Of a stretch of 64,000 nt of DNA, positions 1 through 25,114 are shown in pieces. This stretch comes from an uncultured Flavobacteriaceae bacterium (GTDB lineage Bacteria > Bacteroidota > Bacteroidia > Flavobacteriales > Flavobacteriaceae): contig CANMWN010000002.1 of assembly GCA_947501625.1 (NCBI GenBank), forward strand, positions 1-64,000, read 5' to 3'. The notes beneath the pieces were generated by a model, which saw nothing but the letters and a program-made list of their open reading frames with translations, was not told the DNA's origin and searched no databases. Position 1 is the first letter of the stretch. The number at the start of each line of letters is the position of its first letter. The position numbers and the translations under genes are program-made.

Positions 1-36
1 GGTACTGCCAATCGGTGGGAGAGTATGTCATCGCCT
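1..36 (+). rRNA. rrf: 5S rRNA, 3' end (partial)
   Basis: The first bases resemble the 3' third of a bacterial 5S rRNA. A GGTACTGC block is followed by the GGGAGAGTA loop-E/helix segment and a terminal TCATCGCC arm that would pair with the missing 5' end. A strong intrinsic terminator follows at once, as expected at the end of an rrn operon. The usual GAGTAGGTC reads GAGTATGTC here, a one-base difference. The rest of the gene lies outside the window. Confidence 0.75.
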
Positions 37-44
37 TTCTTTTT

Positions 45-79
45 AAAAGCCTTCACTAAAAATAGTGAAGGCTTTTTTT
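45..79 (+). terminator. Intrinsic terminator of the rRNA operon
   Basis: A perfect 14-bp stem (45-58 with 63-76) encloses a 4-base A loop and ends in a run of T. It follows the 5S 3' end within about ten bases, so it most likely ends the rrn transcript and insulates the sugar locus from it. Confidence 0.9.
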
Positions 80-121
80 GTTTTGGAATGTAGGTATGGG
101 AGTGTAATTTGTGTAATTAAA

Positions 122-140
122 ACTATACACTGACTATACA
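122..140 (+). promoter_or_regulatory. Putative operator: tandem ACTATACA repeat upstream of the symporter
   Basis: Two exact copies of ACTATACA (122-129 and 133-140) are separated by CTG, giving an 11-bp period of about one helical turn on the same DNA face. The site is about 70 bp upstream of the symporter start. Related tandem sites occur upstream of susC and of the T9SS binding protein, which suggests a locus-specific regulator site. The function is inferred. Confidence 0.55.
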
Positions 141-208
141 AATTTAAAATTTAATCATATTTATTAGTATTTACACTATATTAGTGCCATTACATTAATG
201 ATTTGCTA

Positions 209-1795
209 ATGTTTAGTTTGGTTTCTTTTTTTGGATTTACAATTTTGGTTGCATTTATAGCGTATTATGCATCAAGGAATACTAATGAAAATTCATCTGA
301 AGGATATTTTTTGGGTGGTAGAAGCTTGACGGCAGGAGTGATAGCAGGGTCCTTGTTATTGACCAATTTATCTACAGAACAAATTGTTGGATTAAATGGC
401 TCGGCATTTGAAAACGGACTTTCTGTAATGGCATGGGAAACACTTGCTGCTATTGCAATAGTCGTTACAGCTTTGTACCTATTACCAAGGTATTTAAAAA
501 GTGGTTTGACTACAATTCCTGAATTTTTGGCTAATAGGTTTGATGTAACTACAAAAACTATTACTTCGATTTTGTTTTTAACTGGTTATGTAGTGGTTTT
601 GTTACCTGTAATTTTATATTCTGGATCTGTTGTTTTGAGTGGAATGTTTGATGTTCCATCATTATTAAAAGTGACTAAAGAACAGTCAATTTTGATTTGT
701 GTTTGGGGAATTGGTTTAATTGGTTCTATTTATGCTGTGTTTGGTGGTTTGAAAGCTGTTGCAATTTCTGACTCTATAAATGCGGTAGGATTATTAGTAG
801 GTGGAATTTTAATTCCAATTTTTGGATTGTTTTATATAGGAAATGGTAATATTATTGACGGAATTTCTACACTAATGATTAATAACTCTGATAAATTTAG
901 TTCTTTAGGAACAGATAATTCTCCTGTGCCATTTCATACTATTTTTACAGGGATGATGTTGGTTCAATTATTTTATTGGGGTACAAATCAACAAATAATT
1001 CAAAGAGCACTAGGTGCAAAAAACTTAAAGGAAGGACAAAAAGGTTTATTACTTGCTTCTTTTTTGAAAATATTAGGACCTCTAATTGTTGTTTTACCAG
1101 GAATTATTGCTTACCATATATTTAATGGAAATATTTCTAATATAGATGATGCTTATCCAATGCTAGTAAATAAAGTATTACCAAAACCGCTTTTAGGCTT
1201 TTTTGCCGCTGTTATTTTTGGTGCAATTCTAAGTTCATTTAATAGTGTGTTAAATAGTTCAGTAACATTATTTGGAATAGATGTGTATAAACAACATATT
1301 AATCCTAATGCTGATGAGAAAACTATAGTGACTTATGGAAAACTTTTTGGGGTTGTTTTAGCAATTTTCGCAATGATTATTGCTCCTCTTATTGCAAATG
1401 CAGATAGTTTATTTGATTATCTTCAAGAAATAAATGGAATTTATAGTATTCCTATATTATCTATTATTGTTATTGGTTTTACAACTAAGAAGGTTCCAGC
1501 AATTGCAGCCAAAATAGGAATCATTTTAGGGTCAATAATGTATATAATTAGCCAGTTTATTCTAAAGCCACTAGTTTTTGGAGAAGAAAATTATCTTCAC
1601 TTTTTAGATATTATGGCAATTTTATTCATATTAAATATTTGTATTATGTTGCTTGTTGGAAAATTGTATCCAAGGAAAGATGACTATATTCAAGAATATA
1701 CTCGAAAAGTTGATATTTCTCCTTGGAAATACTCTAAAAGAATAGGGTTATTGATATGCGCAATTGTAGTTTTTATTTATATATATTTCGCTTAA
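209..1795 (+). CDS. SGLT-like sodium:sugar symporter (SSS family)
   Basis: This 528-residue, 13-14 helix inner-membrane protein belongs to the sodium:solute symporter family and resembles Vibrio vSGLT closely. Visible matches are a TNLSTEQIVG segment, whose Gln58 corresponds to a sugar-binding Gln of vSGLT, and YYWGTNQQIIQR around Asn260. It probably imports a monosaccharide such as glucose with Na+, a fitting end product of the glucan locus. I chose the ATG at 209 rather than a TTG six bases upstream, because the ATG fits the N-terminus of the family. It is followed, with only two bases between, by the locus regulator, so the two are probably cotranscribed. The exact substrate cannot be read from the sequence. 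Confidence 0.88.
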   Translation: MFSLVSFFGFTILVAFIAYYASRNTNENSSEGYFLGGRSLTAGVIAGSLLLTNLSTEQIVGLNGSAFENGLSVMAWETLAAIAIVVTALYLLPRYLKSGLTTIPEFLANRFDVTTKTITSILFLTGYVVVLLPVILYSGSVVLSGMFDVPSLLKVTKEQSILICVWGIGLIGSIYAVFGGLKAVAISDSINAVGLLVGGILIPIFGLFYIGNGNIIDGISTLMINNSDKFSSLGTDNSPVPFHTIFTGMMLVQLFYWGTNQQIIQRALGAKNLKEGQKGLLLASFLKILGPLIVVLPGIIAYHIFNGNISNIDDAYPMLVNKVLPKPLLGFFAAVIFGAILSSFNSVLNSSVTLFGIDVYKQHINPNADEKTIVTYGKLFGVVLAIFAMIIAPLIANADSLFDYLQEINGIYSIPILSIIVIGFTTKKVPAIAAKIGIILGSIMYIISQFILKPLVFGEENYLHFLDIMAILFILNICIMLLVGKLYPRKDDYIQEYTRKVDISPWKYSKRIGLLICAIVVFIYIYFA

Positions 1796-1797
1796 TT

Positions 1798-4602
1798 ATG
1801 GATAGATTTTTTACATTGATATATGCAATTTTACTTGTAAACTTAAGTTTTGCTCAAGAAAGACCACCTATTCAAGAGTATAATACAGATGTTTATAATG
1901 CCGAAAACCAAAATTGGTCAATATCTCAAGGTGAGAACCAATACATTTATGTAGCAAATAATAAAGGATTATTGGAGTATAATGGCGCAAAGTGGAAATT
2001 ATATCCAACACCTAATGAAACGATTCTTAGATCTGTTTGTGCAATAAATAATCGAATTTACACAGGTAATTATATGGATTTTGGTTATTGGGAAAAAGAT
2101 GAAAAAGGAATCTTAAATTATACTTCTTTATCTGATAAATTGAAAATACCATTAGTAGAAGATGAACAAATATGGAAAATTATTCCAATAGATAATTGGA
2201 TACTTTTTCAATCACTCAATAGAATTTATATTTATAATACTAATGATTCATCTTATAAATTTATCGAAACTGATACATCAATAACAGGAATGTATAAGTT
2301 TAATAATGATATATATTTTCAACAAATAAATAAAGGACTTTATATATTAAAAAACGGCACTTCTGCATTGATAAATGATAATGATATTGTTAAGAATAAC
2401 ATTATAGTTAATTTATTTAGACTTAACGACTCTTTTTTACTCTTAACTCAAGATAAAGGGTTTTATCAGATTAATAATGATAAATTACTTGAATATAGTA
2501 AATTAAATAATGAAGTTATTTTATCTTCTAGTATTTATAGTGCCCTAGAATTGGAAGATGAAAGTTTTTTATTGGGCACTATATCTAATGGAATAATACA
2601 GTTGGATAAATACGGTAAAGTTATTTATCAAATTAATATTTCAAATGGATTGTCAAATAATACGGTTTTATCTGTTTTTGAAGATCAGGAAAAGAATGTT
2701 TGGCTTGCGTTAGATAATGGTATTAATTGTATAAATTTTAAATCACCTTATAAAATATTTAATGATAAAAAAGGTATGTTAGGGACGGTATATGCTAGTA
2801 AAATATTTAATGATTATTTATATATAGGATCTAACCAAGGTTTATTTTATAAAGATATTAACTCAGCCAGTGAGTTTAAATTTGTTAATGGCACCCAAGG
2901 CCAAGTATGGTGTTTGGTTGAGTATGATAATACTTTGTTTTGCGGAAATAATTTTGGGACATTTATCATTAAAAATGGTACTGCAACGAAAGTTGCAAAC
3001 ATTCAGGGAACTTGGGACTTAAAACCTGTTTTAGGTAAACCAAATTTTTTGTTACAAGGTAATTATAACGGTCTTAATATATTAGAGAAAGTAAATGGTG
3101 CTTGGAGTTTTAGGAATAAAATACAAGGCTTTAATATTTCTTCAAGGCACTTTGATTTTTTTACTGATAATGAAGTTTTTGTTAATCATGAGTATAAAGG
3201 TGTGTTTAAAGTTATTTTAGACAAAGAATTACAAAAAATTAAAAAGGTTTTGAAAGACACATCTGTAGTTAAAAGTAAAAACTCTAGTCTTTTCAAATAC
3301 GGAAATAAAATCATGTATTCTAGTAATAAGGGGATATTTGAATATGGTAATGACTCGTTTAAGAAAAATATTTTTTTGAGTAATATTTTTGAAACAGGAA
3401 ATTATATATCTGGTAAAACTTCATTTGATAAAAAGAAAAATAATCTTTGGGTATTTACTGAAAAAAATATTAATAGAATAAGTCAAGGTACAATTAGCAA
3501 TCAACCAAACCTTTTAAGTGTGCCAATACCCTATAGTTTAAGGAATGGATTTAGCGGTTATGAAAACATAACACATATAAAAAATCAAGAATATCTATTA
3601 GGAACTTCTTCTGGTTATATTGTAATAGATTTAGATAAACTCGAAGAAAGTAATAAGAATTTTGAAATTGAAATTACTCAAATAAGAGGAGTGAACCATA
3701 AAAATAATGATATATTTAAAAGAATAAATAAAGATATAAAGGGTGAATTCGTCAATGAATATAATAATTTCGAATTCTCATATAGTGTTCCTGATTATGA
3801 CAAGTATCACGAAGTTCGTTACCAACATAAATTAGAAGGGATTTATAATCAATGGAGCGATTGGACTACAAATTCAACAGCAACTTTTACTAATCTACCT
3901 TATGGTGATTATAAATTTATTGTAAGAGGAAAAGTTGGTGAACTACTAACTCAAAGTAAATCATACGATTTTAGAATTAATAGACCGTGGTATTTGTCAA
4001 ATTTAATGATTACCTTATACATTGTTAGTATAATACTCTTTTCTTTATTAATGCATAATATTTATAAAACTTATTATAAAAGGCAGAGAATTAAGTTGTT
4101 AGAGAAATCTCAAAAGGAAATGCAATTAAAAGAGTTGGAAATTCAACAGCAATTAATGTATTTGAAAAATGAAAACCTCGAAAAAGATATTGACGGTAAA
4201 AATAGAGAATTGGCTGTATCAACAATGAGTTTGATTAAAAAGAATGAGTTTTTGAATAGAGTTAAAAATGAGCTTAATACAATAAAAAAACCGAGTGATG
4301 TTAAATCAGTTATACAGTTGATAGATAGAAATATAACTAATAACGATGATTGGAAACTATTTGAAGAAGCGTTTAATAATGCTGATAAAGATTTTTTAAG
4401 TAAAATAAAAGAAAAACATAATGATCTTACGCCAAATGATTTAAGATTGTGTGCTTACTTAAGACTTAATTTATCTTCTAAGGAAATAGCACCATTATTA
4501 AATATTTCACATAAAAGTGTTGAAGTTAAACGATATCGTTTGCGTAAAAAATTAAATTTACCTCACAAGGTTAGTCTGGTAAGTTATATTCTTGAGATAT
4601 AA
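1798..4602 (+). CDS. Membrane-tethered regulator: beta-propeller, Y_Y_Y domain, TM helix, LuxR-type HTH
   Basis: The 934-residue product begins with a signal peptide (MDRFFTLIYAILLVNLSFAQ), for which I chose the ATG at 1798 over an in-frame ATG 42 bases upstream. Residues of roughly 30-620 form repeated WLAL/IIQLDK-type propeller blades like the sensor part of SusR-like hybrid regulators. A Y_Y_Y Ig-like domain follows at about 660-728, one TM helix at about 730-757, a charged coiled coil at 760-830, and a C-terminal HTH at about 875-934 (LTPNDLRLCAYLRL, then SSKEIAPLLNISHKSVEVKR). There is no histidine kinase or receiver domain. It would sense oligosaccharide in the periplasm and bind DNA from the membrane. 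Its place beside the symporter and susC makes it the likely activator of the locus; its ligand is unknown. Confidence 0.85.
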   Translation: MDRFFTLIYAILLVNLSFAQERPPIQEYNTDVYNAENQNWSISQGENQYIYVANNKGLLEYNGAKWKLYPTPNETILRSVCAINNRIYTGNYMDFGYWEKDEKGILNYTSLSDKLKIPLVEDEQIWKIIPIDNWILFQSLNRIYIYNTNDSSYKFIETDTSITGMYKFNNDIYFQQINKGLYILKNGTSALINDNDIVKNNIIVNLFRLNDSFLLLTQDKGFYQINNDKLLEYSKLNNEVILSSSIYSALELEDESFLLGTISNGIIQLDKYGKVIYQINISNGLSNNTVLSVFEDQEKNVWLALDNGINCINFKSPYKIFNDKKGMLGTVYASKIFNDYLYIGSNQGLFYKDINSASEFKFVNGTQGQVWCLVEYDNTLFCGNNFGTFIIKNGTATKVANIQGTWDLKPVLGKPNFLLQGNYNGLNILEKVNGAWSFRNKIQGFNISSRHFDFFTDNEVFVNHEYKGVFKVILDKELQKIKKVLKDTSVVKSKNSSLFKYGNKIMYSSNKGIFEYGNDSFKKNIFLSNIFETGNYISGKTSFDKKKNNLWVFTEKNINRISQGTISNQPNLLSVPIPYSLRNGFSGYENITHIKNQEYLLGTSSGYIVIDLDKLEESNKNFEIEITQIRGVNHKNNDIFKRINKDIKGEFVNEYNNFEFSYSVPDYDKYHEVRYQHKLEGIYNQWSDWTTNSTATFTNLPYGDYKFIVRGKVGELLTQSKSYDFRINRPWYLSNLMITLYIVSIILFSLLMHNIYKTYYKRQRIKLLEKSQKEMQLKELEIQQQLMYLKNENLEKDIDGKNRELAVSTMSLIKKNEFLNRVKNELNTIKKPSDVKSVIQLIDRNITNNDDWKLFEEAFNNADKDFLSKIKEKHNDLTPNDLRLCAYLRLNLSSKEIAPLLNISHKSVEVKRYRLRKKLNLPHKVSLVSYILEI

Positions 4603-4624: not shown

Positions 4625-4643
4625 ACACAACATTAACTATACA
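4625..4643 (+). promoter_or_regulatory. Putative operator: degenerate tandem repeat upstream of susC
   Basis: ACACAACA (4625-4632), a TTA spacer and an exact ACTATACA (4636-4643) give the same 8+3+8 layout with 11-bp period as the site upstream of the symporter. It lies in the 227-bp gap between the regulator and susC. Its role as operator is inferred from recurrence and position. Confidence 0.5.
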
Positions 4644-4751
4644 GTTACTTTTATGTTAATTGAATTTTTGATTAATTTAATCATTTATTTTTTTAAATAA
4701 AATTCTGATTATCAATATTTTATATTTATTATGTATGGTTATTATGTTTTT

Positions 4752-4759
4752 TGTATAGT
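4752..4759 (-). promoter_or_regulatory. Inverted ACTATACA half-site close to susC
   Basis: TGTATAGT on the plus strand is the exact reverse complement of ACTATACA and lies about 70 bp before the susC start. That distance matches the site upstream of the symporter. A degenerate copy, TGTATGGT, lies 20 bp upstream at 4732-4739. This is a second element in the same promoter region, in the opposite orientation. Confidence 0.4.
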
Positions 4760-4829
4760 TTTTTTAATGTTAATTTTTTCACAACACATTTGAGGATTAA
4801 CTACTTTTATAAAAACTAAATTAGTATTC

Positions 4830-7800
4830 ATGAAATATTCAATTAATTTAATCTTTGCACTCCTTATTACTGTGAATTTATTTTCCCAAAATGAAATTTC
4901 AGGAGTTGTAACTGATAAAGAAGATGGAACTCCCATTCCAGGAGTTAATGTTGTAGTAAAAGGCACTACAATAGGTACGCAAACAGACTTTGATGGTAAT
5001 TATACTTTAAGTAATGTAAGTGATAGTGCTACTATTGTTTTTTCAAGTATAGGCTATGAAACTATAACTATAGTTGTTGGATCTGGTGTAGATTATAATA
5101 TACAATTACCTCAAAATGTTGATAAATTAGATGAAGTAGTTGTTATTGGTTATGGTGCATTAAAAAAGAAAGAAGTTACAGGGGCTGTTGCTATTGTTTC
5201 TAGTGAATCAATAGAGAAATTGAAACCAACTCGAATTGAGCAAGCGCTTCAAGGACAAGTAGCAGGGGTTAATATTACTTCAACATCGGGATCGCCTGGT
5301 GCAGCATCGAGTATTAGAATTAGAGGTATTTCTACCAATGGTGATAATCAACCATTAATTCTTGTTGATGGTAACAGAATTGAAGATTTGAGTGTTATTA
5401 ATCCTTCGGATATTGAATCTATTAATGTTTTGAAAGATGCAACAGCAGGTATATATGGTGTACAAGCTGCAAATGGAGTTATTATTATAACTACCAAATC
5501 TGGTAGAAAAAATTCAGATTTTAAATTTATTTTTAACAGCTATGTTGGTTCACAAAGCACAACAAGAAAAATTCCAGTATTAAATGCTACAGAATATGCA
5601 CTTTTGGCTAATGAAGCATTTGCGGCTAATGGTGATCCAATACCATTTAATGATATTTTATCATTAGGTCAAGGTACTGATTGGCAAGATGAAGTATTTC
5701 AAAATGCTTTTGTTAGTAGTAGTGATATTAGTGTAAGCAAAGGAACAGAAAAAGCAGCATATAACTTTAGTGCATCTTATTTAGATCAAGACGGTATTGT
5801 TGGCTTAGAAAAATCTAATTTTAATAGGCTTACTTCTAAGTTAAATGTTAATGTGGATATTTTTGAAGATTTAAAACTCAACTCTTCAGTAATTTATACT
5901 AATACTAAAAGTAGTGGATTGAATGAAAATAATATTGGTTCGGTATTATTTAATGCATTGAATTTTGGGCCAAATTTAACGCCTACTGATGCTAATGGTG
6001 ATTTTACTTTAACTCCTGCTAGTGGTTTTGGTCAAGAAATTATTAACCCATTAGCACAAATTGCAACTACGTTTAATAGAACTGAGGTTAATAAAATTGC
6101 ACCAACTGTTGGTTTAAATTATAAGTTTTTAGATAATTTTTCAGCCGATGTAAAGTTTCAATATAATTATGCAAATGTTTTTTCTAAAGCATTTTTCCCA
6201 ATAAATTCTTTTGGTGAAAGTTCTACTGTTTTTGATAAGTTAAATAATAGTTTAACGAATTACAAAGTTGCTTATGAAGATTATATTTTTGATGCCTATG
6301 TAAAATATGAAAAGGTTTTTAAAGATGTTCATGATGTTAAATTATTATTAGGTACATCGGTTTCTAGAAATAATTTTTACAATAAAATAAATAGACAAGG
6401 ATTTGATTTTACCGACGGAAACTTAGATTCAAGTTTGAGTGATGCCGATAGAATTGAAGATTATAATATATTAAACAATGCGCCAAGCAAGATAGATGGT
6501 TCGCGTTTATTGTCTTACTTTACTAGACTTCAATATAGTTATGATGGTAAATATTTACTTTCAGCTGTTTTAAGGCGTGATGGTTCTTCAAAGTTTGGAC
6601 CAGCAAATAAATTTGCTTACCTACCATCAGTTTCACTTGGATGGGTGATTTCAGATGAAGAGTTTTTACAAGATTCAAAATCGATTAATTTCTTAAAATT
6701 AAGAGCAAGTTATGGTGTAGTAGGAAATGATAGAATTGCACCATTTAGATTCGTTTCATTATTAGATGGCGAAGGCGAATACATTTTTGATGATGAGATT
6801 AATTTTGGAATTGCTACAGGTGCTCTTTCTAATCCAGAGATAAGATGGGAAAAGCAAAAACCACTTGATATTGGTTTAGATATTAAGTTTTTAGATAAGT
6901 TTGATATTACAGTGGATTATTTCAAAAAAACTACTGAAGATCTATTAGTTCAGCCTCAAGTTTCTGGAATTTTAGGAGTAAATGCTCCAGGTTCTGGATT
7001 GCCATTTGTGAATGCTGGAACTGTTGAAAATAAAGGTGTTGAGTTTTCTATTGGTTATAAACAAGATGTTTCTGATGATTTTGATTTTAGTATTAATTAT
7101 AACTTTACAACGCTTGATAACGAAGTTTTAGAAGTAAATGGTGACAATTCTTTTGTTGCTGGTGGTTCTTTTGGAGTTGGTCAAGAAGCCCCATCAAGGA
7201 TGGAAGCTGGTTTTCCAATAGGTTATTTTTATGGATTGCAAACTGATGGAATTTTTCAAACACAGGCTGAAGTTGATGCACATGCTACACAAGTTAATGC
7301 TAATCCTGGCGACATACGCTTTGTAGATATTAATGGTGATGGAGAAATAAATGAAGAAGATAGAACTTATATTGGTGATCCAATACCTGATGTAACAATG
7401 GGACTTAATTTAAGTGGAAATTATAAAAACTTTGATTTTAGTGCCTATGCATTTGCTTCAATTGGTAATGAAATTGTTAGAGATTATGAAAGAAATGTTG
7501 CTTTAGCAAATAAATCAGTATATTACTTAGACAGATGGACAGGTCCAGGAACAAGTAATTCTTTCCCAAGAGTTACCACTGGAGCAACAAGCAATACTTT
7601 ATTCTCAGATTTTTATGTTGAAGATGGCTCTTTTGTGAGATTGCAAAATGTTCAAGTTGGATATACCTTGAATAGTGATACTTCTCAAAAAATAGGATTA
7701 GATAAATTAAGATTTTATGTTTCAGGAAACAATTTATTTACAATTACTGATTATAAAGGTTATGACCCTACAGCATCGAATGGTGCTCCAATTGGTGGAG

Positions 7801-7865
7801 GAATCGATAGAGGATTTTATCCATCACCAAAAACATTCATTTTTGGATTAAATGTTAATTTTTAA
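4830..7865 (+). CDS. susC: SusC-like TonB-dependent outer-membrane glycan transporter
   Basis: The product has 1011 residues, a usual length for SusC. A signal peptide (to about residue 20) is followed by a CarboxypepD_reg-like domain (about 22-97, EISGVVTDKEDGTPIPGVNV), a TonB plug (about 105-225, with SIRIRGIS, PLILVDG and VLKDATAGIYG) and a 22-strand barrel ending in an aromatic residue (GLNVNF). It forms the outer-membrane channel that takes up glucan oligosaccharides with TonB energy, with SusD as its lid. SusD follows 11 bases downstream. Expression probably depends on the sites at 4625-4643 and 4752-4759. The beta-1,3-glucan substrate is inferred from the neighbouring GH16, GH17 and GH149-like genes. 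Confidence 0.95.
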   Translation: MKYSINLIFALLITVNLFSQNEISGVVTDKEDGTPIPGVNVVVKGTTIGTQTDFDGNYTLSNVSDSATIVFSSIGYETITIVVGSGVDYNIQLPQNVDKLDEVVVIGYGALKKKEVTGAVAIVSSESIEKLKPTRIEQALQGQVAGVNITSTSGSPGAASSIRIRGISTNGDNQPLILVDGNRIEDLSVINPSDIESINVLKDATAGIYGVQAANGVIIITTKSGRKNSDFKFIFNSYVGSQSTTRKIPVLNATEYALLANEAFAANGDPIPFNDILSLGQGTDWQDEVFQNAFVSSSDISVSKGTEKAAYNFSASYLDQDGIVGLEKSNFNRLTSKLNVNVDIFEDLKLNSSVIYTNTKSSGLNENNIGSVLFNALNFGPNLTPTDANGDFTLTPASGFGQEIINPLAQIATTFNRTEVNKIAPTVGLNYKFLDNFSADVKFQYNYANVFSKAFFPINSFGESSTVFDKLNNSLTNYKVAYEDYIFDAYVKYEKVFKDVHDVKLLLGTSVSRNNFYNKINRQGFDFTDGNLDSSLSDADRIEDYNILNNAPSKIDGSRLLSYFTRLQYSYDGKYLLSAVLRRDGSSKFGPANKFAYLPSVSLGWVISDEEFLQDSKSINFLKLRASYGVVGNDRIAPFRFVSLLDGEGEYIFDDEINFGIATGALSNPEIRWEKQKPLDIGLDIKFLDKFDITVDYFKKTTEDLLVQPQVSGILGVNAPGSGLPFVNAGTVENKGVEFSIGYKQDVSDDFDFSINYNFTTLDNEVLEVNGDNSFVAGGSFGVGQEAPSRMEAGFPIGYFYGLQTDGIFQTQAEVDAHATQVNANPGDIRFVDINGDGEINEEDRTYIGDPIPDVTMGLNLSGNYKNFDFSAYAFASIGNEIVRDYERNVALANKSVYYLDRWTGPGTSNSFPRVTTGATSNTLFSDFYVEDGSFVRLQNVQVGYTLNSDTSQKIGLDKLRFYVSGNNLFTITDYKGYDPTASNGAPIGGGIDRGFYPSPKTFIFGLNVNF

Positions 7866-13258: not shown

Positions 13259-16200
13259 ATGAGTAAAAATCCAATATACATAGGGAATAAAGTAGCTTCG
13301 TTTGGAAACAAAGAGGTTAAAGGAAAATTAATTTCTTTTGATAATGAAGTTTATTATAAAATTTCTAATAGTGATCAAATGAGACCATTTTTTATGAGTC
13401 TTGTAAGTAATTCTAATCACTGGATGTTTATCGCTAGTAACGGTGGTTTATCTGCAGGTAGAAAAAATGCAGAAAATGCACTTTTCCCATATTATACCGA
13501 TGACAAGATTATTGAATCTGCTGATATTACTGGTAGTAAAACAATACTGCTTGTTCATAAAGAGCAAAAAACTTTTTTATGGGAGCCTTTTTCTAATAAG
13601 TATTATGGAATCTATAAACTAACTAGAAATCTCTATAAAAACAATTACGGTAATAAAATCATTTTTGAAGAAATAAATGAAGACCTTGGATTGACTTTTC
13701 GTTATCAATGGAATACTAGTAATCAATTTGGTTTTGTAAAAAAGTCTTCAATAATTAATAATTCTTCATCTTCTATTTCAGTAACAATTGTTGATGGAAT
13801 TCAAAATATTATGCCTTATGGAGTTAGTTCTGATTTACAAAATGCAAGTAGTAATCTAGTTGATGCATATAAGAAAAGTGAATTAGAAGTTGATACAGGT
13901 TTAGGGATTTTTGCATTAAGTGCAATTATAGTAGATAAAGCTGAACCAAGTGAAGCATTAAAATCAAATATCGTTTGGTCATTAGGAATAGATAATCCAA
14001 CTTATTTATTATCATCATTGCAATTAAATAATTTTCGGAATGGAAAAAAAATACATCAAGAGGAAGCTATAAAAGCTGAAAAAGGAGCGTATTTTATTCA
14101 CACAAGTTTTGATTTGAATGCCAATCAAAAAAAGAATTGGATGTTTATCGCAAATGTCAATCAATCAATGAATGATATTTGCGAAATTAAAGAGAAAATA
14201 AAAAACGATAATGACTTAATGTCTATTGTTCAAACTAATATTGAACTTGGGACTAAGCATTTGTTAGAACTTGCAGGCTCATCTGACGCAATACAATTGG
14301 GTGAAAATAAATTAAGAAATACAAGACATTTTTCCAATACTCTGTTCAATATTATGAGAGGAGGAATTTTTGATAACAATTATAAAATTGAAAAAGAAGA
14401 TTTTGTAAAATATATAGCCAAAGCAAATAAAAAAGTATTTAAGAAAAAAAATCAAATTCTTACCAATTTACCTTCTCTTTTTGATCTTAATTTTATTTAT
14501 AAAATAGCCAAAGAAGATGATGATAAAAATTTTAAACGCTTGTGCTTTGAATACTTGCCTTTAAAATTTAGTAGAAGGCATGGTGATCCTAGTAGACCAT
14601 GGAATAAATTCTCTATCAATACAAGAAGCGAAGTAGATGGGTCTAAAATACTAGACTATGAAGGTAATTGGAGAGATATTTTTCAAAATTGGGAAGCGTT
14701 GGCACATTCTTATCCCGAGTTTATAGAAGGTATGATTCATAAATTCTTAAATGCAACTACTTTTGATGGATATAATCCATATAGAGTCACAAAAGGAGGT
14801 TTTGATTGGGAAGTAGTTGAAGAAGATGATCCATGGTCATATATTGGTTATTGGGGAGATCATCAAATAATTTATTTACTTAAATTTTTAGAGTTTATTG
14901 AAAATTACTACCCAAACAGATTGGCAAGTTATCATAATCAAGACATTTTTGTTTATGCCAACGTCCCTTATAGAATAAAAACCTATGACGATATTTTAAA
15001 AAACCCTAAGGATACTATTGATTTTGATTATGAAAATGATGCTAGAATCAATCAAAAAAGAAAAGAATTAGGCGTTGATGGTGCATTATTGAGAGATGAG
15101 AATTTCTTTATTTATAAGGTTAATATAATAGAAAAATTATTGGTGCCTGTATTGGCTAAAATTTCAAATTTTATTCCCGAAGGTGGAATCTGGTTAAATA
15201 CTCAAAGACCTGAATGGAATGATGCTAATAATGCTCTGGTTGGTAATGGTGTTTCAATGGTAACATTGTATTACATAAAACGATTCTTGAATTACTTTGA
15301 GAATTTTATTGATACTATTTCAGCAAATCAATTTGAGATTTCAGTTGAACTTTCAATATTATTAAAGGCTATTACAAAAGCATTGGTTTCTAATGAAAAA
15401 ATTCTATCTAATAGAATATCTGATGCTGATAGAAAAACATTAATGGATCTACTTGGTAATGCAGGTAGTATTTACAGAAACAGTATATATTCTAACGGTT
15501 TTTCTAGCGATAGAGAAAAAATTTCAAAAAGCGAAATTATTGACTTTATTAGAATAACTAATAAATATCTTAATCATACTATAGCGGCAAATAAAAGAGA
15601 GGATAAGTTATATCATGCTTATAATTTAATGACTTTGAAAAATGAATCAGAAGTTTCAATTTCTTATTTGCCAGAGATGCTTGAGGGTCAAGTAGCTATT
15701 TTAAGTTCTGGTTACTTATCTTCAATAGAAGCATTAGAGGTATTAGATAGCTTGAAATCAAGTAAATTGTTTAGAGAAGATCAGTACAGCTATATTTTAT
15801 ATCCAGATAAGGAATTGTCAAGATTTGTTGATAAAAATAATATTTCTTCACAATCGGTTGAAAAATCCAAATTACTTAAACAATTAGTTGCTGAAGGTAA
15901 CACACAAATAATTGAACAGGATAGTTTAAGAAACTATCATTTTAACGGTAATTTTAATAACGCTGATAGTTTGTTGAGCGCTTTAAATGAACTTTCGGAA
16001 GAAAAATATGGTACTTTAATAGAGCAAGAAAAACCTTTGCTGTTATCAATTTTTGAAGACATTTTTGATCATAAATCTTTTACTGGTCGTTCAGGTACAT
16101 TTTTTGGCTATGAAGGCTTAGGTTCAATTTATTGGCACATGGTTTCAAAATTACTTTTAGCAGTTCAAGAAGTATGTATGAAAGCCGTTAAAGAAGAAGA

Positions 16201-16717
16201 AAGTGAAGAAGTTATTGGAAGGCTTTTGGAACACTATTATGAAATAAACGAAGGAATAGGTATTCACAAGTCTCCAGAATTGTATGGAGCCTTTCCAACC
16301 GATCCTTATTCTCACACGCCAGCTGGAAAAGGCGCACAACAACCTGGAATGACAGGTCAAGTAAAAGAAGATGTGTTATGTAGGTTTGGTGAGCTAGGTG
16401 TATACGTAAAAAATGGAATTTTACAATTTAACCCAAGATTGTTAAGGCAAAAAGAGTTTTTAATAAACCCTCAGGTTTTCAATTATACTGATGTTAATTC
16501 GAATGAAGTAAGTATTCCATTAGAAAAAAACTCTTTTTGTTTTACATATTGTCAAATTCCAATTATTTATAAACTTTCTAATAAAAATAAAATTGAAGTA
16601 ATAACAAATAATGAAGATAAAGTATTTGAAAGTTTAATGCTAGACCTTAAAACAAGTCAAAAAGTTTTTCAAAGAACTGGAGAAATTAAATTTATAAAAG
16701 TTGAATTAAAAATATAA
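13259..16717 (+). CDS. Cytosolic beta-1,3-glucan phosphorylase (GH149-like, clan GH-Q)
   Basis: The 1152-residue protein has no signal peptide and so is cytosolic. It resembles the inverting glycoside phosphorylases GH94/GH149/GH161: the motif EWNDANNALVGNG at about 652-664 matches the GH94 WND catalytic segment, which makes Asp655 the proposed general acid. Other visible family features are GYWGDHQIIYLLKF and the C-terminal GPHS/SYKPLK-like sandwich. Its length fits GH149 or GH161 better than GH94 (about 800). It should split imported beta-1,3-glucan oligosaccharides with phosphate to glucose-1-phosphate, saving ATP. It is the first gene after a terminator, with a GH17 gene 11 bases downstream. 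GH149 rather than GH161 is inferred from the flavobacterial context. Confidence 0.75.
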   Translation: MSKNPIYIGNKVASFGNKEVKGKLISFDNEVYYKISNSDQMRPFFMSLVSNSNHWMFIASNGGLSAGRKNAENALFPYYTDDKIIESADITGSKTILLVHKEQKTFLWEPFSNKYYGIYKLTRNLYKNNYGNKIIFEEINEDLGLTFRYQWNTSNQFGFVKKSSIINNSSSSISVTIVDGIQNIMPYGVSSDLQNASSNLVDAYKKSELEVDTGLGIFALSAIIVDKAEPSEALKSNIVWSLGIDNPTYLLSSLQLNNFRNGKKIHQEEAIKAEKGAYFIHTSFDLNANQKKNWMFIANVNQSMNDICEIKEKIKNDNDLMSIVQTNIELGTKHLLELAGSSDAIQLGENKLRNTRHFSNTLFNIMRGGIFDNNYKIEKEDFVKYIAKANKKVFKKKNQILTNLPSLFDLNFIYKIAKEDDDKNFKRLCFEYLPLKFSRRHGDPSRPWNKFSINTRSEVDGSKILDYEGNWRDIFQNWEALAHSYPEFIEGMIHKFLNATTFDGYNPYRVTKGGFDWEVVEEDDPWSYIGYWGDHQIIYLLKFLEFIENYYPNRLASYHNQDIFVYANVPYRIKTYDDILKNPKDTIDFDYENDARINQKRKELGVDGALLRDENFFIYKVNIIEKLLVPVLAKISNFIPEGGIWLNTQRPEWNDANNALVGNGVSMVTLYYIKRFLNYFENFIDTISANQFEISVELSILLKAITKALVSNEKILSNRISDADRKTLMDLLGNAGSIYRNSIYSNGFSSDREKISKSEIIDFIRITNKYLNHTIAANKREDKLYHAYNLMTLKNESEVSISYLPEMLEGQVAILSSGYLSSIEALEVLDSLKSSKLFREDQYSYILYPDKELSRFVDKNNISSQSVEKSKLLKQLVAEGNTQIIEQDSLRNYHFNGNFNNADSLLSALNELSEEKYGTLIEQEKPLLLSIFEDIFDHKSFTGRSGTFFGYEGLGSIYWHMVSKLLLAVQEVCMKAVKEEESEEVIGRLLEHYYEINEGIGIHKSPELYGAFPTDPYSHTPAGKGAQQPGMTGQVKEDVLCRFGELGVYVKNGILQFNPRLLRQKEFLINPQVFNYTDVNSNEVSIPLEKNSFCFTYCQIPIIYKLSNKNKIEVITNNEDKVFESLMLDLKTSQKVFQRTGEIKFIKVELKI

Positions 16718-22901: not shown

Positions 22902-23230
22902 CACAACTTATCAATATAGTGTATAATGTTGTTAATTCTTGCCACAATAGAACTTTACACTCGTTGTATTTTACTATACGAATTAAAAACTTGCCTATAC
23001 ATTAACACTACAAAGTTGGTTATTTGGAATTTATTTAAAAGTTTTAAATATCCAATGAGTCCTATTTATTGCTGGTAATTTAGATTTTTTTCAGCTTGTA
23101 TGTTTTTTGTAGTGTGTTAAATCTTTATATTTTTTTATTGTCTACATATATTTACAAAAATCAAAACTATGTTTAGTTAAATGTTAAACAAATAGTATTG
23201 ATAATATTAATTCTAAAATTTATTATAATT
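22902..23230. other. 329-bp intergenic regulatory region
   Basis: This is the only gap above 300 bases. It holds no credible gene. It contains the operator-like cluster at 22973-23012, an AATATAGTGT block at 22913-22922 that is the exact inverse of ACACTATATT at 173-182, and a near -7 box TATATTTA at 23147-23154. I see no clear terminator for the upstream operon. Confidence 0.6.
22973..23012 (+). promoter_or_regulatory. Putative operator cluster upstream of the T9SS binding protein
   Basis: ACTATACG (22973-22980) is followed 21 bp on by CCTATACA (22994-23001), a TTA spacer and ACACTACA (23005-23012). The last two elements keep the 8+3+8 layout, 11-bp period and even the TTA spacer of the susC site. 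This is the third promoter of the locus with the pattern. The regulator is not proven. Confidence 0.5.
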
Positions 23231-25114
23231 ATGAAAAAAATTACTTTATTATTTTTATTTCTCTTAACTATAGGATTTGGTTTTGCCCAAACGACAACTT
23301 ATAACATTACGTTTGAGCCAGGAACTGATGGAAGTGATCCTAATGAATGGAGTACTTTTGAAAATGCTGATGGCGATAACGCAGATGCAATAGTTGCTAA
23401 CCCAGATACTTCTGGAATAAATACGAGTGCAACTGCATTGCAAATGGATACTAATATCCATGTGAACAATGGTGGTGGTTCTCAAATTTATGCAGGATTG
23501 CAATCTCAACAACCAGGAATATTTGGAACTTGGGAACTAGAATCTGGGCAAACAATGAACTTAACTATGATGGTTTATAAAGAAGAGATTAGTGAAACCA
23601 GAGTACAATTTGTTAATGCAACAAATGGTACTGTTTTTCAAATTGCTATGTCAAATACTGTAGTTAATCAATGGGAATTATTAACATATGATTTAACACC
23701 TCATATTGCAAGTGCTGAAAATGTAAATATTAATAGAATAGTGGTTTTTCCTGATTGGCAAGAAAGAAACCAGATTAATACAAATCTAATTGATAATATT
23801 AATTTTGTTGCAAATGCTATTGCAGCTCCAACAGAACCAACTGATGCTCCAGAAGCACCAACAGAGGATGCAATGGATGTTATTTCAATTTATAGCGATG
23901 CATATACTGATGTTACAGTTAATGGATTTAATCAATTTGGTGGATCTACTTTGACTGATGAAGTTATAGCTTCTAATAATGTAAAAAAATATGTAAATTT
24001 AGATTTTACTGGTATAGAATTTACCGGTGCTAATCTTATTGATGCTTCAAGTATGAATACTTTTCATATTGATGTTTGGAGTCCAGATTCAAATGATTTT
24101 AAAGTAAAATTAGTTGATTTTGGAGCAAATCAAATTTATCAGGGAGGAGATGATACGGAATTCGAAATTACTTTTGCTTCACCTACTGCTGGTCAATGGA
24201 ATGCTTATGATATTCCTTTAGCAGATTTCACTGGAATAAATACTGATAATCTTGCGCAACTTATATTAGTTAAAGGCGGTGGTACTGCATTTGTCGATAA
24301 TATTTATTTTTATAGCGCACCTGCAACTGACCCAACTGTTGCTGCTCCAGTACCTACACCAATGCAATCTGAAGTTATAAACATGTATAGTAATACCTAT
24401 ACTTCAGACGTTGCGGTTAGCTCATGGAGAGCAGCTTGGAGTACTAGTACTTATACTGATAATGTACAAGTTGATGGTTCAGCTGGATCTGAAGCTAAAA
24501 GATATATAGATGCTGATTTTGTTGGAGTTGAATTTTATGGAGATCCTGTAGATGCAACTTCAATGAATTATTTTCATGTAGATGTATGGTCGCCAAATGC
24601 AACAGTATTTAGAGTTAAATTAGTTGATCTAGGAACAGGTAGCCCTATTGAAGGTGAATTACCATATAATATAGCTCAAGGAGAGTGGGTGTCATTGGAT
24701 ATTCCTTTAGCAGATTTTGCTGATGGTACAAAAGTTACTAACCCAGCAAATCTTTTAACAGTAAGAAACTCTATTCAGCAACTTATATTTTCTGGACAGC
24801 CTACAGGAACATTTGATTTCTATGTAGATAATATTTATTTTTCTACAGTAGCATCTTTGAGTGTTGAGGAGAATAATATTATTTCTGATTTTAATGTTTA
24901 TCCAAATCCATCAAGTTATAAATGGAATATTAAATCACTTTCAGAAGAAATTACATCAATCCAAGTTTATGATATTCTAGGGAAGGAAGTAATGACTATG
25001 AAACCAAATGCTTTAGAAACAGAAATTGATAATTCTAATTTAAATATAGGATTATACTATGCAAAACTTAATACTGCTATAGGTAGTAAGACAGTAAAAC
25101 TTATTAAAAAATAG
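23231..25114 (+). CDS. T9SS-secreted glycan-binding protein
   Basis: The 627-residue protein starts with a Sec signal peptide (MKKITLLFLFLLTIGFGFAQ); I chose the ATG at 23231 over an upstream TTG because only it gives a normal signal peptide. An N-terminal beta-sandwich (about 22-190) resembles the repeated module of the SGBP lipoprotein. Two further modules (about 215-360 and 375-540, DVISIYSDAYTDV and EVINMYSNTYTSD) match that lipoprotein's middle module. A type A T9SS sorting domain closes it (about 548-627, FNVYPNPSS, IQVYDILGKEV, GLYYAKL). It should be a surface-attached or released laminarin-binding protein. It has its own promoter region and terminator. Confidence 0.85.
   Translation: MKKITLLFLFLLTIGFGFAQTTTYNITFEPGTDGSDPNEWSTFENADGDNADAIVANPDTSGINTSATALQMDTNIHVNNGGGSQIYAGLQSQQPGIFGTWELESGQTMNLTMMVYKEEISETRVQFVNATNGTVFQIAMSNTVVNQWELLTYDLTPHIASAENVNINRIVVFPDWQERNQINTNLIDNINFVANAIAAPTEPTDAPEAPTEDAMDVISIYSDAYTDVTVNGFNQFGGSTLTDEVIASNNVKKYVNLDFTGIEFTGANLIDASSMNTFHIDVWSPDSNDFKVKLVDFGANQIYQGGDDTEFEITFASPTAGQWNAYDIPLADFTGINTDNLAQLILVKGGGTAFVDNIYFYSAPATDPTVAAPVPTPMQSEVINMYSNTYTSDVAVSSWRAAWSTSTYTDNVQVDGSAGSEAKRYIDADFVGVEFYGDPVDATSMNYFHVDVWSPNATVFRVKLVDLGTGSPIEGELPYNIAQGEWVSLDIPLADFADGTKVTNPANLLTVRNSIQQLIFSGQPTGTFDFYVDNIYFSTVASLSVEENNIISDFNVYPNPSSYKWNIKSLSEEITSIQVYDILGKEVMTMKPNALETEIDNSNLNIGLYYAKLNTAIGSKTVKLIKK

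Follow-up and report, generated by a model that had tools for sequence, protein, structure and literature searches.

For the SusR-like regulators of Bacteroides, operators made of direct repeats and a long spacer in helical phase have been predicted (Ravcheev et al., 2013; PMC3878776). In the part of that paper available to us, these regulators are single membrane proteins with a periplasmic sensor and a cytoplasmic C-terminal helix–turn–helix (HTH) that are encoded beside susC and susD, their operators have two conserved, helically phased sites with 67 or 77 bp between the centres, and the DNA-binding domain of SusR is reported to have no significant similarity to other known factors. The AraC-type hybrid two-component systems (HTCS) of Bacteroides, such as BT4663, are likewise encoded beside susC and susD and have direct-repeat operators, and the predicted HTCS repeats are on average 21 bp apart (same part of PMC3878776). 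The regulator in the accessible part of PMC12125979 is a different one, of the XylR type.

Here we analyse a window of 64,000 nucleotides from an uncultured Flavobacteriaceae bacterium (GCA_947501625.1, contig CANMWN010000002.1, positions 1–64,000, forward strand) that carries the gene of a regulator, hereafter REG. The C-terminal domain of REG matches the family of NarL/FixJ/LuxR-type HTH proteins (GerE). The best-known arrangement of NarL heptamers is an inverted pair; unlike such LuxR/NarL-type inverted-repeat operators, the elements described below are built of half-sites that form direct repeats in an 11-bp register. REG has the propeller and Y_Y_Y sensor fold of HTCS proteins, a position beside susC and susD and direct-repeat candidate operators but, unlike them, has no kinase, receiver or AraC domain that we could find, and a LuxR-type HTH instead. 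It shares with the SusR-like proteins the overall architecture, the gene neighbourhood and the direct repeats, but each site here is a tandem of octamers, the two sites are mutually inverted and they lie about 100–174 bp apart instead of 67 or 77 bp; moreover, its HTH is recognizably of the LuxR type, SusR being compared by its description only (available part of PMC3878776). The two agree in principle but differ in detail, and we do not class REG among the SusR-like regulators although it would work in a similar way. An earlier, sequence-only reading of the window had known of no described operator of this form, and the openly licensed PMC full text that we searched likewise yielded none for this regulator class, but phased direct repeats had been predicted for SusR-like regulators; two phased sites are common to both, the octamer and inverted layout is not (available part of PMC3878776).

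The glucan locus and its regulator

According to domain matches, the gene order is SSF symporter, REG, SusC, SusD, PKD protein, GH16 and GH149 1,3-beta-glucan phosphorylase, followed after the latter by GH17, a GH2-type enzyme, GH30, an MFS transporter, a second GH17 and a T9SS-secreted protein. The joint presence of GH149, GH16, GH17 and GH30 suggests that the locus serves a beta-1,3-glucan, presumably laminarin. Laminarin, a storage glucan of major importance in algae, is consumed by Flavobacteriaceae among others. The 1152-aa protein encoded at 13259–16717 had no Pfam match, yet NCBIfam assigns it as the GH149 1,3-beta-glucan phosphorylase. At the contig start, where the tail of a 5S rRNA gene had been suspected, Rfam gave no match at E ≤ 0.01 (window positions 1–400).

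REG consists of an HTCS-like propeller, a Y_Y_Y domain, a single hydrophobic stretch (residues 730–756), a long helix and the LuxR-type HTH. Its GerE domain scores above the Pfam cut-off (28.2 bits versus 23.5), Reg_prop falls slightly under it (19.1 versus 20.4), and there was no Pfam match in REG to a histidine kinase, a receiver or an AraC-type HTH; the sequence-only reading had likewise given the regulator at 1798 a LuxR-type HTH and no kinase. The structure model of REG shows the fold of the BT4663 and BT3049 sensors (4a2l, 3v9f), and NarL (1je8) is among the weak PDB matches to its HTH (E = 0.16). If match ranges of equal length are read as ungapped, residue 910, in the recognition helix, corresponds to chain position 55 of 1je8. 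The latter would be the base-contacting Val189, which is equated with residue 910 by chain position and NarL numbering. Residue-level NarL contacts were not found in the available part of PMC2585596. Of 249 genomes sampled from the family of the window, 155 encode relatives of REG at E ≤ 1e-100, and the named relatives are almost all Flavobacteriaceae.

Genes, candidate promoter boxes and putative operator elements in the window (D, distal; P, proximal)
Feature	Position	Strand	Remarks
Putative tandem operator of the symporter/regulator operon, ACTATACA-CTG-ACTATACA	122..140	+	11-bp register; layout recurs in 19/137 related regions
Candidate -7 box of the symporter/regulator operon, TATATTAG	177..184	+	36 nt past the tandem
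Sodium:solute symporter (SSF family)	209..1795	+	ATG at 209 within listed TTG ORF 203–1795
REG regulator	1798..4602	+	HTCS-like propeller, Y_Y_Y sensor, one TM helix, LuxR-type HTH
Val910 codon, recognition helix SVEVKRYRLR	4525..4527	+	Proposed specificity residue
Putative distal operator (D) of susC, ACACAACA-TTA-ACTATACA	4625..4643	+	
Degenerate proximal element (P) of susC	4741..4760	-	P 9.5 bits; holds - strand ACTATACA at 4752–4759
Candidate -7 box of susC, TACTTTTA	4802..4809	+	41 nt past the proximal element
SusC-like TonB-dependent transporter	4830..7865	+	First in the glucan operon
Outer half-site of the putative T9SS-gene operator, ACTATACG	22973..22980	+	21 bp before the tandem
Putative distal tandem operator (D) of the T9SS gene, CCTATACA-TTA-ACACTACA	22994..23012	+	20.5 bits, matrix never trained on the window
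Proximal inverted element (P) of the T9SS gene, TGTATGTTTTTTGTAGTGTG	23097..23116	-	25.3 bits out of sample
Candidate -7 box of the T9SS gene, TATATTTA	23147..23154	+	Exactly 30 nt past the proximal element, as in relatives
Secreted protein, T9SS type A sorting domain	23231..25114	+	ATG at 23231 within listed TTG ORF 23198–25114

Tandem octamers and a second, inverted element

The sequence-only reading had named octamer pairs at three promoters, those of the symporter/regulator operon, susC and the T9SS gene, and all three are present as described. With the generic half-site MCNNNACA, which was derived afterwards from relatives, the window has four pairs at a spacing of 11 (at 122, 4625, 22994 and 60136), the first three being the named promoters, and none or one at each other spacing from 8 to 44. 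The earlier pattern WCTATACR-N3-ACWMTACA with up to three mismatches has seven matches in the window (shuffle mean 1.31; none of 100 shuffles reached seven), four of them in the three promoters and three in ORFs. In the genome-wide search that had been suggested for this pattern, there were, at up to three mismatches, 55 matches versus 40 for a backwards control pattern, and the loose pattern alone is thus a weak discriminator (21 of the 30 matches examined overlap an ORF of at least 100 aa); at one mismatch or fewer only two sites were left in the genome, 122 and C1:521471.

An inverted element that had been overlooked earlier completes the T9SS promoter, with a D–P distance of 103 bp, and is degenerate at susC. 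The T9SS promoter is the top match in its own genome for the models of both elements (E = 0.016 for P and 0.044 for D, both marginal). In the backwards window, chance scores reached 8.7 for P and 22.0 for D, the real D scoring 20.5, so D alone is not decisive. The half-site upstream of this D appears by eye to be the counterpart of an outer half-site some 22 bp upstream in many relatives. At susC, the order of the half-sites in D is reversed with respect to the Val-type consensus (types are named after the residue at position 910), a further - strand ACCATACA lies near P at 4732–4739, the D–P distance of 116 bp falls between the 113- and 125-bp classes described below, and the -7 box is about one turn farther from P than the 30 nt usual in relatives.

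The elements were defined in 40 loci, which represent 40 of the best 41 matches to REG other than itself (the own locus and G170, on a short contig, were left out), in stretches of up to 20 kb around each; four loci (L069, L091, L101 and L105) were left out of the training for D. SusC and SusD genes follow REG in 32 of the 40 and a gene weakly similar to the GH2-type enzyme of the window in eight. The gap after REG contains the distal tandem D, with the consensus ACCYATACA-NN-ACCACAACA, usually about 23 nt past the REG stop codon and frequently preceded at about 22 bp by a further octamer, and then the proximal inverted pair P, with the consensus TGTATRTTTTTTGTWGNGGT, which stands 30 nt before the -7 box. 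Within three mismatches of the consensus, P was found in all 40 loci and D in 35.

For an independent test, REGs that were more than 95% alike were merged (168 to 132), L212 and L235 were dropped as having no HTH by regular expression, and 92 further non-redundant REGs, many of them from named species, were scored with matrices built from the 40 loci at a threshold of 15 bits. At least 15 bits were reached by P in 47/48 loci of the Val type, 28/32 of the Ile type and 2/12 of the Thr type (0/1840 shuffles), and by D in 40/48, 10/32 and 1/12, respectively (1/1840 shuffles). Conservation upstream of orthologous loci, by which the sequence-only reading had proposed to judge the motif, is therefore strong, with P in 40/40 of the defining loci and in 75/80 of the independent Val- and Ile-type ones. 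Many Ile-type loci have, by eye, a tandem whose half-sites are in reverse order, and a near-perfect generic tandem is present in the first 200 nt of 113 of the 115 P-bearing loci. In the 115 Val- and Ile-type loci, training loci included, a column consensus TAnnTTTA begins 31 nt past P; the sigma-A -7 consensus of Flavobacterium psychrophilum is TAnnTTTG (available part of PMC9723704). Core-promoter consensus as the whole explanation of P was rejected, as 30 nt separate P from the -7 box, of which it forms no part.

Distances between D and P span about 100–174 bp in steps of roughly one helical turn, with classes near 102, 113, 125, 135, 147 and 172 bp and one locus at 158. Among 90 clusters (REGs at 70% identity), the best period was 11.6 with R = 0.71, a value that was reached by none of 5000 uniform and none of 5000 jittered sets. 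A spacing of one or two turns had also been claimed for the octamers themselves, and it holds in the regions upstream of REG or of the symporter: a scan of 137 such regions of at least 150 nt with a stricter octamer found same-strand pairs at 11 bp in 19 regions, to which the strict tandem is confined, at 22 bp in four, at 55 bp in three, at 21 bp in two and at 12, 33 and 44 bp in one each, and at none of the other spacings from 8 to 59. In the 20 tandem sites, including the one in the window, TAnnTTnG follows the tandem at 26–27 nt in ten and, a turn farther, at 36–37 nt in six; four have no TAnnTTnG at those distances, and ten sites also show the looser TAnnTT, at 17 nt. Upstream of the symporter, the tandem seen in the window recurs in two of the five relatives that were testable.

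Genome searches, in which the best 150 of some thousands of candidates were scored per genome, yielded 25 P matches in 15 of 17 REG-bearing genomes, with one to three in each of the 15 and none in two. Sixteen of these matches adjoin REG, six lie elsewhere in the locus (within about 25 kb) and three are off-locus, two of the latter in coding DNA. Some of the 17 genomes had contributed P elements to the P model used (R1), so the matches adjoining REG are partly there by construction; the six other in-locus matches and those in the window's own genome are free of this overlap. With the same scoring of the best 150 candidates, 17 genomes without a REG match (E ≤ 1e-100), three of them less than 90% complete, gave three P matches, one of them between ORFs and the other two within ORFs of 340 and 603 aa. 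A motif equally common at unrelated sites would have spoken against the sequence-only reading; in its refined form the motif is uncommon there, 22 of the 25 matches among the best 150 candidates per genome being at the REG locus.

Half-sites of a paralogous regulator clade

A second clade of REG proteins has Thr at the position of Val910 of the window (SVETKR versus SVEVKR) and adjoins a SusC that is 30–35% identical to that of the window (nine members checked). Such Thr-type regulators (L110–L115, L117, L120, L122 and others) have a SusC/SusD locus of their own and in some genomes, for example G125, G133, G134, G143, G157 and G209, occur alongside a Val- or Ile-type regulator; in the Thr-type protein of L114, GerE is just under the cut-off (22.5 versus 23.5). 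The clade keeps D, the inverted P at the same spacings and mostly the outer octamer, but the half-sites are CCACGACA-like and P is most often TGTTCGTTTTTTATCGAGGT. With the Val- and Ile-type P elements located by a mostly Val-trained matrix, P starts with TGTAT in 86/86 loci of the Val type, 27/29 of the Ile type and 0/13 of the Thr type, and base 5 of the octamer is A or T in all 224 Val/Ile half-sites versus G in 14 of 20 Thr half-sites. On the tree the Thr clade arose once, so that the covariation of recognition helix and half-site counts as one event. The element is clear in 13 of the 15 non-redundant Thr-type REGs; L110 has a variant and L119 has other DNA there, an unrelated ORF replacing the operator region in an insertion-like manner, with no susC in the stretch examined.

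Proposed mechanism, alternatives and further sites

We propose, with a probability of about 0.83, that the elements are operators of the membrane-anchored propeller/Y_Y_Y/LuxR regulator encoded at 1798, in an activator position and perhaps with DNA looping. These odds rest mainly on the independent-locus test, the 11-bp pairs, the half-site switch and the D–P phase, and the assignment to this particular regulator on linkage and the switch between paralogues. The elements, their geometry, conservation and locus specificity and the change of half-site with the recognition helix can be read from the DNA itself; from them we infer binding by REG, activation, the ligand and a loop that connects D with P.

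REG would probably sense glucan oligosaccharides in the periplasm through its HTCS-like propeller and Y_Y_Y sensor, span the inner membrane once and end in the LuxR-type HTH without a kinase. Upon ligand binding, dimers or arrays of REG would seat their HTHs on the 11-bp-spaced octamers, each HTH reading one MCNNNACA octamer, and octamers 11 or 22 bp apart would align several HTH domains on the same side of the helix. The single tandem pair of symporter/regulator promoters would act from 26–37 nt before the -7 box. In the promoters of glucan operons, P lies immediately upstream of the -33 region, a place suited to contact between an activator and RNA polymerase, and D, a whole number of turns farther up (roughly 9–15), may connect with P through a bridge at the membrane. 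The complete picture, a membrane-anchored, kinase-free glucan sensor that activates its locus through looping at the inner membrane, rows of HTHs on inverted phased elements and a Val/Ile-or-Thr code that separates paralogous loci in one cell, is put forward tentatively, at somewhat less than even odds. Such an operator would make glucan sensing open to reporter experiments, allow prediction of regulons from sequence in uncultured genomes and offer a simple model of DNA engagement by membrane-bound regulators that have large sensor domains and no kinase, and the half-site change between paralogues would amount to a directly testable recognition code.

REG might also bind D and P as separate sites, P activating susC and D serving as an upstream cooperative or autoregulatory site, with the phasing due to side-by-side cooperativity or to tolerance of indels. 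This reading is plausible but doubtful: only P stands at a fixed distance from the -7 box, and Ile-type loci have P in 28/32 and D, as scored with a Val-type matrix, in just 10/32, but a tandem accompanies P in 113 of 115 loci and the helical phase, which distant sites without mutual contact would not need, is kept over about 100–174 bp. That the tandem of the symporter/regulator operon is an autorepression site, REG repressing itself and activating susC, seems rather unlikely to us. The spacing of 36–37 nt, one turn farther and in phase, suits upstream activation, although at 26–27 nt from the -7 box the tandem does reach the -33 region, and some relatives have, by eye, outward-facing octamers across the promoter.

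Binding by a different factor, such as a global carbohydrate regulator, whose sites coincide with the regulator gene, would account for the elements without REG. We consider it very improbable, given that, among the best 150 candidates per genome, 22 of 25 P matches lie at the REG locus and 15 of 17 REG-bearing genomes have a match, whereas 3 of 17 REG-free genomes do, near the nominal chance rate; paralogous regulators, moreover, have altered half-sites in the same geometry. The excess of the loose three-mismatch pattern over its control (55 versus 40) is small enough to suggest chance AT-rich repeats or core-promoter sequence, but conservation in relatives and the exact spacing contradict this explanation and leave it a negligible probability.

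In the window's own genome, the site at C1:521471–521489 (L031) reads CCTATACA-AAA-ACTATACA, closely follows what is by eye a hairpin-like terminator, precedes the gene of a T9SS type B secreted protein, and is the second match of the P model (E = 0.04); it could be a distant member of the regulon or a chance match. Two loose matches, at C2:103497 and C4:232496, share a GCCATTA-A/T-CTATACA-like string that may be part of an interspersed repeat and were set aside. A good off-locus P in another genome (L257, at G143:C1:844106) is flanked by two genes whose products look secreted, one product resembling a chitinase by eye, and is possibly another target of the regulator.
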